NCBI GenBank assembly: GCA_027024155.1
Contig: JALVTE010000109.1
Coordinates: 1 to 64,000, forward strand
Origin: Campylobacteraceae bacterium
Lineage (GTDB): Bacteria; Campylobacterota; Campylobacteria; Campylobacterales; Sulfurovaceae
Direction of reading: 5' to 3'
Length of the DNA: 64,000 bases
Positions 63 to 57,219 of the stretch are shown in pieces; the stretch's first letter is position 1, and the number at the start of each line of letters is the position of its first letter. The notes under the pieces were generated by a model. It ran no database searches. It was not told where the DNA came from and saw only the letters and a list, made by a program, of their open reading frames with translations. The translations under genes and the position numbers were made by a program.

Positions 63-292
63 GCTTTGAAGTACCTAATTATAGAGCAAGTTGGCTTGTT
101 GTCTAATTTGGTATGGAATTATTGGGGCTAAAAATAGATGATACCCACAACATCTCTAGCTTTAATAACAGGCTAGGCACACTTTTACAGTCTAGCCGAA
201 GCTAATTCAAGAAAGAGTAACGACGCATAGGCGGAAAGCTAGAGATAGCCTTCGGATAGATATTACCTATTAGTATAGGTGCCCTACAAGTA

Positions 293-530
293 ATTAAGTT
301 AAGGAATTTACTTCCATAAATTGTAGTAAATTTAAAGCTCACCATCTCAGTCATTCTTAGTAGAGCGAAGAATCTAGTTTAAACGGCTGTAAAGCTAATA
401 GTTTATCTCGGCTTTTTAAGTTAGATTCTTCGCATACGCTCAGAATGACTGCGATGGTAAATATTTTCATCACTTCTGGCTTTGAGCTTAAAGCCAAGAT
501 ATGGATATGAAATCCTTAACTTAACGCCAT
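293..530. repeat. Copy 1 of nested-palindrome dispersed element (MITE/REP-like)
   Basis: Outer inverted repeat TTAAGTTAAGGA../..TCCTTAACTTAA; inner palindrome GTCATTCTTAGTAGAGCGAAGAATCTAG...TTAGATTCTTCGCATACGCTCAGAATGAC; near-identical reverse complement of the copy at 32283-32570. Confidence 0.8.
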
Positions 531-589
531 TAAAGGTGCCCTAAAGTTTTACAAGAAATCTAATATAGAATATAACAAGATAATAACTT

Positions 590-11222: not shown

Positions 11223-11373
11223 GGTGTGGTAAGGGTACAGCACACTACACTCTTAATAATTTGGTCGGTGTAAACTGCAATGCCAATAAATTAAGCTTTT
11301 AAATGTGCAGTGAGGGCACTGCACCCTACAGTAAAGTCAATTTTATCGTAGGGTGTGGTACCCTTACCACACC
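11223..11373. repeat. 26-bp imperfect inverted repeat enclosing the GTGCAGTGAGGGCACTGCAC palindrome
   Basis: GGTGTGGTAAGGGTACAGCACACTAC (11223-11248) against GTAGGGTGTGGTACCCTTACCACACC (11348-11373); inner hairpin 11305-11324. Confidence 0.8.
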
Positions 11374-11450
11374 AAAAGATCCTTAATTCAATAGCATTGC
11401 ACTAAACCGACATTACAACTTCTGCTCTCAACAAATCATAAAGTACCCTA

Positions 11451-11559
11451 CACCGTCACTCTGAGTAAAGCGAAGAGTCTAGCCAAAATTGACAAGGCAT
11501 AGAATTTACTCTACAATTTAAACTAGATTCTTCACATCCGTTCAGAATGACGGCGATGG
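11451..11559. repeat. Copy 2 (diverged centre) of nested-palindrome dispersed element
   Basis: CACCGTCACTCTGAGTAAAGCGAAGAGTCTAG ... CTAGATTCTTCACATCCGTTCAGAATGACGGCGATGG. Confidence 0.75.
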
Positions 11560-11590: not shown

Positions 11591-11608
11591 CTGGTCAGTA
11601 AACCGACC

Positions 11609-13429
11609 CTACCTTAATGCAATCTTGCTAACTCTCTCTTTTGCCTGAGCAATTATAGCCTCGTCTTGGCTTAAATCTAGCCATTTAAAGGCTTCGCCAC
11701 TTTGCGTTACACCATCTAGTAAATCTCCACTATTTCGGTATTTTAAATCTAGCATAGCAATTTTAAAGCCATCTAGTGTTTGGCTAAACTCTTCTAACCT
11801 TTTTGGTGGCGTTTTTGCATTTGTATATAAGAAGCAGTGGCTCTCTAGCCCCTGACGCCCTACTCTTCCACGCAGTTGATGCAAAGTTGCCAAACCAAAG
11901 CGTTCTGCTCCTACAATTACTATTGTAGTTAGTCTAGGCAAGGATATTCCTACCTCTATAACCGTAGTCGATAGCAAAATATTCCCCTTATCTCTAAACT
12001 CTAACAACACTTCATCTTTTGCTTTGTCTTTACCATGGGTTACATATACATTTTCAAACTTTTTCTGCCAATATGCAGTTGCCTCTGTTAGAGATGTATA
12101 TGGCACTTCATCGCTAGGCTCTACTAGTGGATAGACTATTAATATCTGATGCTCTTGCTCAATTTCGCTCTCTATATGCTCCAATAAAGCATTAAAGTCG
12201 GCTTTGCCTATTATATGTGTCTCTATCAGCTTTTTAAATGGTAGCATCTTTATAGTAGTTATATCTATCAACTCGCTCTCAATCATCGCTTGCGTTCTAG
12301 GTATTGGGGTTGCTGAAAATTGCAAAAAGTGGGGGCTGTTTTCACCCTGTTTGCTAAGAGCATCTAGCATAGCTCTCTGCCCTGCTCCAAAACGGTGTTG
12401 CTCGTCTATCATAACCAAAGAGGCTTTTGGTAAGTCATCTTTATAAAGCAGTGCATGCGTTCCTATTATAAAGTCTGCTTTTGTATAGTCGCCATCGCTG
12501 TTTTTTTGTGTAACCAGAGCCAAATTTAAAAAGTTAGATAGATACTTAGTAGCCTCTTCATATAGCTGATTAGCAAGTAAAGAGGTAGGAGCCATTAAAA
12601 TAGATTTATCTTTGCCAGCAATCATAGCCGAAGCAAGTATTACCATAGTTTTACCACTACCTACATCACCTATAATAATTCTTTTAGCCGCCTTTTGGCT
12701 ACTTGCTAAATCATTCTTAACCTCTTGTATCGCTTTTAACTGGTCGTCCGTTAGTGTAAATGGCAAGCTCTCAATAAATGGCAAAGCAGATCCATTTAAA
12801 GATTTTATTGGCTTATTAGTCACCCGTTTTCTTCGCATTTTTGCTAAGTGGCTATACGCCTCTACCGATTTAAGTGCAAAGATAATACTCTCTATATACT
12901 CACCTTCACTCTTTACTTCGCTAATAGTTTTTGGAAAGTGCAACTTTAAAAGGGCATCTACTTCATTTGGTAACAATCCCGCAGAGTATAGACTCTCGCT
13001 AGTTATATACTTTTTTATTAAAGCTCTAATTTCGCTCTGTTTTAAAACAGTTTTATATTTTGGTGTAATCTCTCCAAAACTCTTTAGAGATTTTGGTTGC
13101 GAAATTTGCAAAGCCCCTCTAAAGTAACCAACTCTTCCGTTAATTACATGCTCGCTACCAACACTAAAAAGCTTCAGATGATAAGGTGTAGTTCTAAAAA
13201 ATATAGCACTAGCTTGTGTATTAAAATCAACTAAATTAAGTTTAATATGCAGTCGCCCACCAAATGTAGAACTACCCACTACAGTAGCCCTAGCAACTAA
13301 GTTAGAGCCATCTTTTATCTCTTTGCTAAGTGTAGTATCTTCGTAACTTGTAGGAATAGTAAGAGCCAAATCTAGCAGAGTTCGCTTTTTTAACTTTTTT
13401 AAAAGTGTTATATCTTTTGGCTCAAACAT
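11609..13429 (-). CDS. recG: ATP-dependent DNA helicase RecG
   Basis: IIGDVGSGKT, MIDEQHRFGAGQR, LRGRVGRQGLESHCFLY. Confidence 0.95.
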   Translation of the reverse strand: MFEPKDITLLKKLKKRTLLDLALTIPTSYEDTTLSKEIKDGSNLVARATVVGSSTFGGRLHIKLNLVDFNTQASAIFFRTTPYHLKLFSVGSEHVINGRVGYFRGALQISQPKSLKSFGEITPKYKTVLKQSEIRALIKKYITSESLYSAGLLPNEVDALLKLHFPKTISEVKSEGEYIESIIFALKSVEAYSHLAKMRRKRVTNKPIKSLNGSALPFIESLPFTLTDDQLKAIQEVKNDLASSQKAAKRIIIGDVGSGKTMVILASAMIAGKDKSILMAPTSLLANQLYEEATKYLSNFLNLALVTQKNSDGDYTKADFIIGTHALLYKDDLPKASLVMIDEQHRFGAGQRAMLDALSKQGENSPHFLQFSATPIPRTQAMIESELIDITTIKMLPFKKLIETHIIGKADFNALLEHIESEIEQEHQILIVYPLVEPSDEVPYTSLTEATAYWQKKFENVYVTHGKDKAKDEVLLEFRDKGNILLSTTVIEVGISLPRLTTIVIVGAERFGLATLHQLRGRVGRQGLESHCFLYTNAKTPPKRLEEFSQTLDGFKIAMLDLKYRNSGDLLDGVTQSGEAFKWLDLSQDEAIIAQAKERVSKIALR

Positions 13430-14730: not shown

Positions 14731-14768
14731 CTTTTCATCCTTGCAGGAAAGCTAGAAGCTATCTTATT

Positions 14769-14803
14769 AGCTTTAAGCTTTTTGCTTTACGCCTTTAGCT
14801 TAT
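14769..14803. repeat. Heptamer array (AGCTTTA)n
   Basis: AGCTTTA AGCTTTT TGCTTTA CGCCTTT AGCTTAT. Confidence 0.7.
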
Positions 14804-14829
14804 TAAAGCCCAAAAAAGGGCTTTAATAA
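14800..14829 (-). terminator. Intrinsic terminator-like hairpin after mqnC
   Basis: Perfect 12-bp stem TTATTAAAGCCC / GGGCTTTAATAA with 6-nt loop. Confidence 0.7.
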
Positions 14830-15893
14830 TATCTTTCCAAAATCTCATAAGCTGTATTTCTTTTAGCTGGCTTCTCGCCAACATCTTTAATTAATGCTAT
14901 CATCTCTTGCTGATTCATAGAGTTTGCTGCACCTGCTGCAGATACAACATTCTCTTCCATCATGGTACTTCCTAAATCGTTTGCACCCCAATTTAGAGCC
15001 ATCTGTCCAATGTAGCTACCTTGTGTAACCCAAGAGCTTTGAATATTTGGTACATTATCTAAAAACAGTCTTGCAACCGCAAGCAGTCTTAAGTATCTAT
15101 TAGAGCTCTGCTTCTTTATCTCTGGGTGTTTTTCCATCAGGGCTGTATTTTTACCCTGAAAGCTCCACATAATAAATGCTCTAAAACCGCCTGTTTTATC
15201 TTGCAAGCGTCTTATTTCATCAAAATGCTCTACTATATCTTCGTCGCTCTCTACAGTTCCATACATCATAGTTGCAGTCGATTTAATACCAAGTTTGTGT
15301 GCCTCTTCGTGCACCTCTAGCCAAGTATCTTTATCTAACTTTTTTGGTGCTATTATATCGCGTACTTTATCGCTTAAAATCTCAGCACCAGCTCCTGGAA
15401 TTGAGCTTAAACCTTTAGCATGCAGTCTTTCTAAAACCTCTTTTATCGAAATATCAGAGCGTCTTGCAATATAATCTATCTCAATCGCACTAAAGCCGTG
15501 AATTGTAACTTGCGGATACTTATTATGAATATGCTCTACTAAATCTTCGTACCACTCTATCTCTAATTTTGGGTGTACACCACCTTGAAATAGGATTTGC
15601 GTTCCTCCAATAGCAATTAGCTCATCTATCTTTTTATCGATTTCATCAAAAGTTAAAATATATGCATCTTCATCTTTTTCGTGGCGATAAAAGGCACAAA
15701 AGTCACAATCTACCCAACAGATATTTGTATAGTTAATGTTTCTATCTACAACAAAAGTTGTAACACCTTTAGGGTGGAGTTGCTTCTTCTTAGCATACGC
15801 TAAGCGACCAAGCTCTTTTAAGTCGGCATTTTTAATTAAATCTACCGCCTCTTGCTTTGTTAGCCTTTTGTTTAAATCTAACTCTAAACCCAA
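14823..15893 (-). CDS. mqnC: Cyclic dehypoxanthinyl futalosine synthase (radical SAM)
   Basis: NYTNICWVDCDFCAFYR CxxxCxxC motif, ILFQGGVHP, GAGAEILSD. Confidence 0.93.
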   Translation of the reverse strand: MGLELDLNKRLTKQEAVDLIKNADLKELGRLAYAKKKQLHPKGVTTFVVDRNINYTNICWVDCDFCAFYRHEKDEDAYILTFDEIDKKIDELIAIGGTQILFQGGVHPKLEIEWYEDLVEHIHNKYPQVTIHGFSAIEIDYIARRSDISIKEVLERLHAKGLSSIPGAGAEILSDKVRDIIAPKKLDKDTWLEVHEEAHKLGIKSTATMMYGTVESDEDIVEHFDEIRRLQDKTGGFRAFIMWSFQGKNTALMEKHPEIKKQSSNRYLRLLAVARLFLDNVPNIQSSWVTQGSYIGQMALNWGANDLGSTMMEENVVSAAGAANSMNQQEMIALIKDVGEKPAKRNTAYEILERYY

Positions 15894-15896
15894 AGG

Positions 15897-16292
15897 CTAC
15901 TCCTTGCCTATAGCATCTAACACACCATTAATAAATTGGTGCGATTTATCATCTGCTAACTCTTTTGCAAGCTCAATCGCTTCGTTAATTACAATAGATT
16001 TATTGTTTTTATCTACCACAATTTCATAAGCCGCTAATCTTAAAATTGCTCTCTCTATCTTGCCTAGCTCATCAAAATCCCACTCTTTTAAATGCTTTTT
16101 GATAGCTTCATCTATCACATCTAAATTATCAACAGTACCTTTAAAAAGCTTTGCAGAGAACTCTCTCTGTTTATTACGAATTTTCTTCTCTTCTAAAATC
16201 TCTTCGAAAAATTTACTAATATCTTCATTGCCTAAATCGTATGCATACAGCAAGCCTACTACAGCTGCTCTTGCTTGGTGTCTTGTTGCCAT
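15897..16292 (-). CDS. nusB: Transcription antitermination factor NusB
   Basis: ATRHQARAAVVGLLYAYD start; VINEAIELAKELADDKSHQFINGVLD. Confidence 0.95.
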   Translation of the reverse strand: MATRHQARAAVVGLLYAYDLGNEDISKFFEEILEEKKIRNKQREFSAKLFKGTVDNLDVIDEAIKKHLKEWDFDELGKIERAILRLAAYEIVVDKNNKSIVINEAIELAKELADDKSHQFINGVLDAIGKE

Positions 16293-16759
16293 TAATTAAG
16301 CTCTCCATATAGGTTTATCATCTCTATTAAGCTACCCATTGCTTCGGCACCTTTGTTTCCAGCTTTCGTACCGGCTCTCTCGATTGCTTGCTCTATGCTA
16401 TCAACAGTTAATACACCAAAGCTTACAGGTTTACCATGCTTTAGTGCCATATTTGCAACACCTTTAGTCGCCTCTGCCGATACATAATCAAAGTGTGGCG
16501 TAGCCCCTCTAATTACTGCACCTAAACAACATACCGCATCGTACTTACCACTTGCAAGTGCTTTATCTAACGCAAACGGAATCTCAAACGCACCTGGTAC
16601 TAAGATTAAATCTAAATCTTTCTCATCCCCACCATGTCTAGCATAAAAATCTTTTGCACCCTCTACTAAACGGTCTGTAATAAAGTGGTTAAACCTTGCA
16701 CTTATAATTGCAACCTTTTTACTCTTATCTACTTGAATGTTACCTTCTACTATATTCAT
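16292..16759 (-). CDS. ribH: 6,7-dimethyl-8-ribityllumazine synthase
   Basis: [41 protein letters not shown]. Confidence 0.96.
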
Positions 16760-16778
16760 ACTTTTCCTTTCTTTTTTA

Positions 16779-16813
16779 AGCTAAAAGCGTAAAGCCAAAA
16801 GCTTAAAGCTAAT
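16779..16813. repeat. Heptamer array (AGCTAAA)n
   Basis: AGCTAAA AGCGTAA AGCCAAA AGCTTAA AGCTAAT. Confidence 0.75.
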
Positions 16814-16859
16814 AAAGTAGCTTCGCTTCCTTTTTTATAAAAGGTGAAACCACAAATTT

Positions 16860-16887
16860 AGCTTTAAGCTTCAGGCTTTAAGCTTTT
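16860..16887. repeat. Heptamer array (AGCTTTA)n, roughly inverted relative to 16779-16813
   Basis: AGCTTTA AGCTTCA GGCTTTA AGCTTTT. Confidence 0.75.
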
Positions 16888-32225: not shown

Positions 32226-32282
32226 TTTCTATCCTGCTAAAAATTTGCTTGGAATTATATCCAAATTTGAAAAACTTAGAGC

Positions 32283-32570
32283 TTATAGCTCCTCTAATGC
32301 CATTAAGTTAAGGATTTTATATCCATTTCTTAGCTTTAAGTTCAAAGCCAAAAGCAATGAAATATTGGCTATCGCCGTCATTCTGAACGTATGTGAAGAA
32401 TCTAACTTAAAAAGCCGAGATAAACTCTTAGCTTTACAGCCGTTTAAACTGGATTCTTCGCATCTGCTCAGAATGACAGCGATAGCAAGCTTAAAGGTGC
32501 CCTAAAGTTTATTGCATTCTATAGAATCAAAACTCTTAACTTAATGGCATTGAAGATGCCCTTATAGCTC
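32283..32570. repeat. Copy 3 of nested-palindrome dispersed element, opposite orientation to copy 1
   Basis: Outer IR TTATAGCTCCTCTAATGCCATTAAGTTAAGGATTTT / AAAACTCTTAACTTAATGGCATTGAAGATGCCCTTATAGCTC; inner palindrome 32367-32487. Confidence 0.85.
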
Positions 32571-33413
32571 TATACAAGTACCAATACCACTGCTTGTTAA
32601 TATCTCTAAAAGTAGAGAGTGTTCTAGTCTGCCATCTATAATATGAGCTTTCTTAACTCCACCACGTAGAGACTCTATACAAGCATCTACTTTTGGAACC
32701 ATTCCTCCTACTATTGTACCATCGCTCTTTAACTCTTCGGTTTTTGCAATAGTTAAAGTTTTTATTAACTCTTTACTCTTATTTAAAACACCTGGAGTGT
32801 CTGTTAAAAATAGAACCTTTCTAGCCTCTAGTGCTACTGCTATACGGCTTGCTGCTAAGTCTGCATTTATATTAAAGCCAGGGTGTCCTAAGCTTACGCC
32901 ACTTGCTATTGGTGCAATTACTGGTATAAATCCATCATCTATTATATTATGTACTACCTCAGCATTAACCTCTTCTATAACTCCTGTGTAGCCAAATTTT
33001 TCAACATCTTTTGGAACTGCTTTAATAAAATCGGCATCTTTACCTGAGATTCCAATAGCCTTTGCACCTTGAGAATTTAGAAGAGATACAATATCTTTAT
33101 TAACCTCTCCACTTAAAACCATCTCAGCTATTCTCATAACCTCTTTAGTAGTAACCCTTTGCCCATCTATAAATTTAGTATCTATATTTAAGTTATTAAG
33201 CATATTGGTAATGCTTTTGCCACCACCATGCACAACTACAGGCTTCATTCCAACAGTATGAAGCAGTGCTATATCTTCTGCAAATTTTGCCTTAAGCTCT
33301 TCGCTAGTTTGTGCAGAGCCTCCATATTTAATTACTATAATGTCATCTCTAAACTTCTTAATGTAAGGTAGGGCATCAAGCAAAGTTGTTACTATTTCTA
33401 TCTTATCTTTCAA
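32562..33413 (-). CDS. argB: Acetylglutamate kinase
   Basis: IVIKYGGSAQ, VVVHGGGKSI, NINADLAASRIAVAL, GGMVPKVDACIESLRGGVKKAHIIDGR. Confidence 0.96.
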   Translation of the reverse strand: MKDKIEIVTTLLDALPYIKKFRDDIIVIKYGGSAQTSEELKAKFAEDIALLHTVGMKPVVVHGGGKSITNMLNNLNIDTKFIDGQRVTTKEVMRIAEMVLSGEVNKDIVSLLNSQGAKAIGISGKDADFIKAVPKDVEKFGYTGVIEEVNAEVVHNIIDDGFIPVIAPIASGVSLGHPGFNINADLAASRIAVALEARKVLFLTDTPGVLNKSKELIKTLTIAKTEELKSDGTIVGGMVPKVDACIESLRGGVKKAHIIDGRLEHSLLLEILTSSGIGTCIEL

Positions 33414-56991: not shown

Positions 56992-57069
56992 TAGCGTTCC
57001 TTTTTATATATTTATATACGCGTAGGGTCAATTTATCGACCATAAAATAGGGATTTAATCTGAATTATT

Positions 57070-57219
57070 GGTCGGTAAACCGACCCTACACTTTTACAAT
57101 AAGATGTAGGTGCGACCGTGTCGCACATTAAAACATAAGGATGTCAGTAATTTTTTCATGTGTGCCATGGTCATACCTACAATATATAAGGCTTTAAAGG
57201 TGCAGTGAGGGCACTGCAC
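57070..57219. repeat. Cluster of short palindromic modules
   Basis: GGTCGGTAAACCGACC (57070-57085), GTGCGACCGTGTCGCAC (57110-57126), GTGCAGTGAGGGCACTGCAC (57200-57219, identical to 11305-11324). Confidence 0.8.

Follow-up and report, generated by a model that had tools for sequence, protein, structure and literature searches.

REP sequences that carry a CGTC tag, among them the dRS3 repeats of Neisseria, are defined by an 8-9-bp stem starting with AT, a 4-5-nt loop, a CCA tail and their occurrence as dimers (Di Nocera et al., 2013, PMC3733652). The published hosts include a Sulfurovum, and in a few species the dimers were noted within longer palindromes; no mover was named for them, and they were never found beside Y1 genes (PMC3733652). 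Transposons of the IS4 family, subgroup IS4, have ends of the form -AATR--------WTW- and are flanked by 10-13-bp repeats (De Palmenaer et al., 2008, PMC2266710). Finally, the MITE within hupL of Ca. Thiomargarita nelsonii (positions 1357-1561) has a 10-bp direct repeat and a 19-bp inverted repeat, and no parent was found for it in ISfinder (Flood et al., 2016, PMC4853749). The repeat family described here, which we call Y, shares features with each of these systems.

We consider it highly probable (about 0.9) that Y is a non-coding MITE with IS4-type ends and a cargo of CGTC-tagged REPs, moved in trans by an IS4-type DDE transposase. The 64,000-nucleotide stretch of DNA analyzed here (the window) holds two copies, the limits of which were drawn at about 287-533 (forward strand) and 32295-32552 (reverse strand). 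Copy 1 consists of arm A, a REP pair and arm B, has the tips CAAGTAATTAAGTTAAGG and CCTTAACTTAACGCCATTA, and lies between direct repeats AGGTGCCCTA on the forward strand at 277-286 and 534-543, which represent a candidate target duplication. By the published definition (PMC3733652), the segment at 350-449 within it is a CGTC-type REP pair (GTCATTCTTAG..GAAGAATC / GATTCTTCGC..GAATGAC). Over most of its length, copy 2 is copy 1 in reverse complement, although the outer arms are unlike on one side, and it contains a CGTC-type REP pair at 32377-32477. Direct repeats CTTATAGCTC at 32282-32291 and 32561-32570 (both forward strand) bound the block that is inserted here relative to congeners, and the right one holds the stop codon of the adjoining argB-like gene (32562-33413, reverse strand). 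A few extra bases separate the tips of copy 2 from the CTTATAGCTC repeats, so the exact history of this insertion is uncertain, and later change or a prior insertion of repeat X, described below, could have obscured it.

The original prediction, made from the letters of the DNA, was that the window contains near-identical inverted copies of a nested palindrome devoid of coding capacity. The copies are real: 365-466 is 92% complementary to 32360-32461 over 102 nt, and 465-544 is 84% complementary to 32283-32362 over 80 nt. Both have the outer TTAAGTTAAGG inverted repeat as well as the inner GTCATTC...GAATC palindromes, and both are non-coding as claimed. The fold, proposed as a further check, is strong in both copies and far beyond that of shuffled sequences (z -8.0 as DNA and -9.7 as RNA), and an Rfam search of the window returned no match. 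Where the prediction must be revised is in treating the nested structure as one palindromic element, since what was found is a MITE enclosing a CGTC-tagged REP pair.

Further copies, which the prediction had anticipated, are plentiful in the genome of origin, the assembly of which (2.15 Mb in 123 contigs) is broken at these repeats. Window positions 293-545 used as a query matched about 60 places in that genome, with E values down to 1e-129, and a search for the end sequence TGCCATTAAGTTAAGGA that allowed up to 2 mismatches gave 103 occurrences, versus one for a reversed-pattern control. At least 41 complete copies were counted in the fetched regions of the genome; they measure 63-556 bp (most of them 228-258 bp) and have terminal inverted repeats (TIRs) of about 19 bp and no ORF of note, as a group in agreement with the length of 70-300 bp, the 15-30-bp TIRs and the lack of coding potential that characterize MITEs. 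The spread of Y within the genus is uneven, the full query having matched 6 of the 11 congeners (0-33 matches each). Outside the genus, the search returned one short match, from a sister genus, and nothing from the remaining genera.

Y begins and ends with (C)CAATGCCATTAAGTTAAGG and its inverted repeat (roughly 19 bp), and its arms, which combine freely, fall into five or more types (A-E). An inverted pair of hairpins (REPs) lies inside 33 of the 40 scored copies, with cassette R1 (GTCATTCTGAGC..GAAGAATC) present in 20, cassette R2 (GTCATTCCCGTG..CGGGAATCC) in 10 and both in 3. Because the shortest copies (63-91 bp) are without a hairpin pair, we infer that the basic Y element is short and that the REP pairs look like cargo within it. 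R2, which reads CGTC-ATTCCCGT-GAAA-ACGGGAAT-CCA, has every published feature of the CGTC-tagged REPs, namely the tag, an 8-bp stem starting with AT, a 4-nt loop, the CCA and the dimeric arrangement. R1, which is the cassette present in the two window copies, shares the tag and the dimer form but its stem is imperfect, and GTCATTCTGAGC..GAAGAATC can thus be regarded as a less perfect variant. The difference from the published REPs (PMC3733652) is that the dimers are housed here in an IS4-type MITE.

Related sequences were also seen apart from complete Y copies. A CGTC-REP pair without Y ends lies at 11454-11552 of the window, so some REP pairs exist outside Y, and at 14755-16887 a sequence with many AGCTTTAAGC-type repeats, which resembles Y arms, occurs three times, with both orientations represented. 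Another multi-copy element, known by its ends only (L289-L307, with right ends in L014, L026, L052, L066 and L069), is joined to CGTC-type REPs in one orientation and invariably at the point between GTCAT and CATTCTGAG, as seen at all 19 left and all 5 right junctions. The ends of this element are not inverted repeats, the contigs stop inside it, and its choice of site resembles, by analogy, that of IS110/IS1111.

Several observations indicate that Y was inserted. In support of the target duplications that were to be looked for, 9-10-bp direct repeats with at least 9/10 identity lie at the tips of 13 of the 41 copies, compared with a mean of 2.5 and a maximum of 9.2 when left and right flanks were re-paired, although these statistics are weakened because the favored target, AGGTGCCCT or its complement, doubles as the end of repeat X, which inflates chance matches. 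In the other 28 copies the duplications are imperfect or absent, having decayed. Duplications off the usual target include TTGGTAGCAC at L008 and GGGGGCGGG at L039, the latter in a congener. The AGGTGCCCT flanks were at first suspected to be part of Y itself, a possibility that was abandoned once they were recognized as favored target and X end. X is MITE-like, about 160-270 bp long, with ends GGGCACCTCTAATAATAGG and flanking TTAA or TATA; it occupies about 125-285 of the window, occurs also at L099, L101, L089 and L014, and often has Y located in its terminal bases.

The argB locus, where copy 2 lies (32.3 kb), is without Y in 10 of the 11 congeners, most of which have a gap of a few tens of bases there. 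Only the nearest congener (G004, with a 99% identical protein) has a Y-family element at this site, the left, outer junction of which is the same as that of copy 2 while the interior cassette is different. All of the 38 copies scored for gene context are intergenic, none being inside a long reading frame; the neighboring genes are co-directional at 23, convergent at 10 and divergent at 2, and 3 copies were unclassified.

An IS with exact Y ends was found neither in the window's genome and its 11 congeners nor by a profile search that covered 299 genomes from the phylum, where IS4-family transposases of this kind are rare (6 of 299 genomes). The exact 18-nt end AATGCCATTAAGTTAAGG is, however, abundant and scattered in genomes of Thiomargarita, Beggiatoa, Thioploca and Parabeggiatoa, and is present in a Sulfurovum genome, a Campylobacterales genome and Gracilibacteria; the first two of these occurrences accord with a host in Campylobacterota. 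It was absent from viral contigs. At L223 a transposase fragment lies directly behind a Y-type end, and with this fragment as the query 22 matches were obtained from Ca. Thiomargarita nelsonii, along with further ones outside it. The partner transposase called for by the original prediction was identified in Beggiatoaceae, including Thiomargarita, where six loci (L259, L263, L265, L267, L269 and L273) contain ISs of 1.76-1.9 kb with both exact Y ends and an IS4-like DDE transposase. Four of these are flanked by duplications of 10-12 bp (ACCCTACGGCT, GACCATAAGT, ACTCTATCACAT and GTGCGTAGGAC), and the reading frames of many of the 1.76-1.9-kb ISs are broken. A 1.36-kb IS of Thioploca (L249) has near-identical ends and an intact, open 430-aa transposase with the YREK motif and a D-80-D-96-E triad, the second spacing of which is just under the published 100-150; some Thioploca copies begin with CACTG instead of the Y-type tip. 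Y thus shares its ends, as expected of a MITE, with autonomous elements, exactly in Thiomargarita and near-exactly in Thioploca.

The ends CAATGCCATTAAGTTAAGG and CAATGCCAATGAAATAAGC, the latter from a resident IS considered below, both fit -AATR--------WTW-. Together with the 10-12-bp duplications, the D-D-E triad and the Y2R3E6K motif, this tip pattern places the parent in subgroup IS4. The published features of that subgroup that recur here are the end pattern, the 10-13-bp duplications, a strong target preference, and D-D-E and Y2R3E6K in transposases bearing the same or related ends; in contrast, Y encodes nothing (PMC2266710). The IS1 family, considered on account of a 9-bp duplication, was rejected, as none of the 12 genomes of the genus contains PF03400. 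Judged by sequence, the ends shared by this genus and Beggiatoaceae are suggestive of horizontal transfer. Our literature search returned no report of the Y end sequence and none linking Beggiatoa with the IS4 family.

The same ends bear on the hupL MITE. At L308, in the Thiomargarita genome, an element with exact Y ends and the repeat ACTGTTTGGAT interrupts the hydrogenase gene and spans the published coordinates of that MITE, and its parent family would for this reason most likely be IS4. The hupL MITE (PMC4853749) has the same 18-19-bp ends as Y and resembles it in direct repeats of about 10 bp, length and many dispersed copies. It differs in belonging to another host phylum than that of Y (Campylobacterota), and in that Y has CGTC-REP pairs and exchangeable arms.

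If Y is such a MITE, an IS4-type DDE transposase would recognize the roughly 19-bp ends CAATGCCATTAAGTTAAGG in trans, excise the element and paste it into a new site, where about 10 bp would be duplicated, as is typical of cut-and-paste transposition in this family. Near-palindromic GG-N-GC-CC targets, such as AGGTGCCCT, would be preferred. The CGTC-tagged hairpin pair would travel as cargo between the exchangeable arms, such that the spread of Y would also spread the REP pair, and later recombination between Y copies could swap arms and cassettes.

The source of this transposase could be the resident IS at L245 (1133-2500), the sole intact IS4-family IS in the window's genome. Its 455-aa transposase, encoded by a single ORF, matches NF033592 (NCBIfam transpos_IS4_1) with 142 bits versus a cutoff of 115 as well as PF01609 (Pfam DDE_Tnp_1), and contains D-93-D-121-E, YFKRWGVEISYDILK and the Y2R3E6K motif. 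Being the only intact homologue in the genome, and sharing with Y the tip CAATGCCA, the 10-bp duplication length (its flanking repeat is CGGAAGTGGG) and the transposase family, it is a possible mover, but we regard it as the less likely one: its ends CAATGCCAATGAAATAAGC agree with those of Y in 14 of 18 bases and are better matched by a MITE family of its own, Z (TIR CAATGCCAATGAATTAAGC), and in Beggiatoaceae the exact Y ends accompany other transposases. A transposase usually discriminates in favor of the ends of its own element. The mover may instead be an IS with exact Y ends that was lost from this lineage or left unassembled. The resident IS is itself nested in a Y copy, within the REP cassette, and the host copy keeps its own AAAGGGCACC repeats. 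Z is a second IS4-type MITE of about 120 bp that carries a GTAG-type REP pair; it was seen at 11278-11399 of the window and at L017 (1336-1456), L065 (701-821) and L067 (1067-1187), its ends have their best match in the resident IS, and several Y copies have a Z element inserted in their REP cassette.

A further possibility, which we view with some doubt, is that the present Y copies are dead and that recombination between them (gene conversion) reshuffled their interiors and so spread the REP pair among them. This reading concerns current activity and is compatible with the arrival of Y as a MITE. The free combination of five arm types, the shared outer junction but different cassette at the argB site of G004 and the decayed tips in 28 of 41 copies are consistent with it. 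However, the existence of near-identical copies (92-95%) and the species-specific copy numbers suggest a fairly recent spread, and recombination alone creates no new insertion sites.

The claim that the element is non-autonomous and moved in trans named either a REP-associated tyrosine transposase or an IS, and only the second option held up, through the dispersed copies, TIRs, duplications and empty sites. Neither outcome named as refuting it, a lack of further genomic copies or the presence of copies at orthologous positions in distant relatives, was observed. It is very improbable that a RAYT (an IS200/IS605-like Y1 transposase) spread Y as a repeat of the REP/BIME type. The genome does contain five Y1_Tnp matches, the inner palindromes of Y resemble REPs, and other REPs flank one of the Y1 genes; yet neither a Y end nor the GTCATTCTGA/GTCATTC repeat lies beside any of the five genes (L031-L035), in agreement with the published separation of CGTC REPs from Y1 genes. 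To our knowledge, RAYT and IS200 enzymes make no target duplications; these, like the long TIRs, suit DDE elements, and with the IS4 partner they largely refute RAYT as the mover. The Y1 gene at L034 (1238-2020) has the REP GTAGGGTCGGTTTACCGAC on both sides in a REPtron-like arrangement, and this REP occurs three times in the window (11594-11612, 57022-57040 and 57071-57089). Less probable still is an immobile structured RNA or terminator of ancestral origin, retained to regulate genes, for which the very strong fold and the intergenic position of all 38 scored copies, just 2 of them between divergent genes, might speak, but which has no Rfam family and fits poorly with the empty argB site in 10 of 11 congeners, copy numbers that jump between species, the target duplications, the lack of Y at orthologous sites across distant genera and the fact that random insertions would, after selection, likewise sit away from promoters and genes.

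In summary, Y accounts for much of the intergenic repeat load of this genome and for many of the contig breaks in its assembly. We lean toward the view that IS4-type MITEs are the vehicle which disperses REP pairs in this lineage, CGTC-tagged ones in Y and GTAG-type ones in Z. A REP pair carried as the cargo of a DDE-type MITE offers a concrete mover for CGTC-tagged REPs and, if true, would answer for this group how such REPs, which lack a transposase of their own, are able to move. The orphan hupL MITE of Thiomargarita gains a parent IS family, and two unrelated groups of sulfur bacteria are tied to one transposon system, their shared ends pointing, if this reading is correct, to transfer of an IS4 system between sulfur-oxidizing bacteria across phyla.
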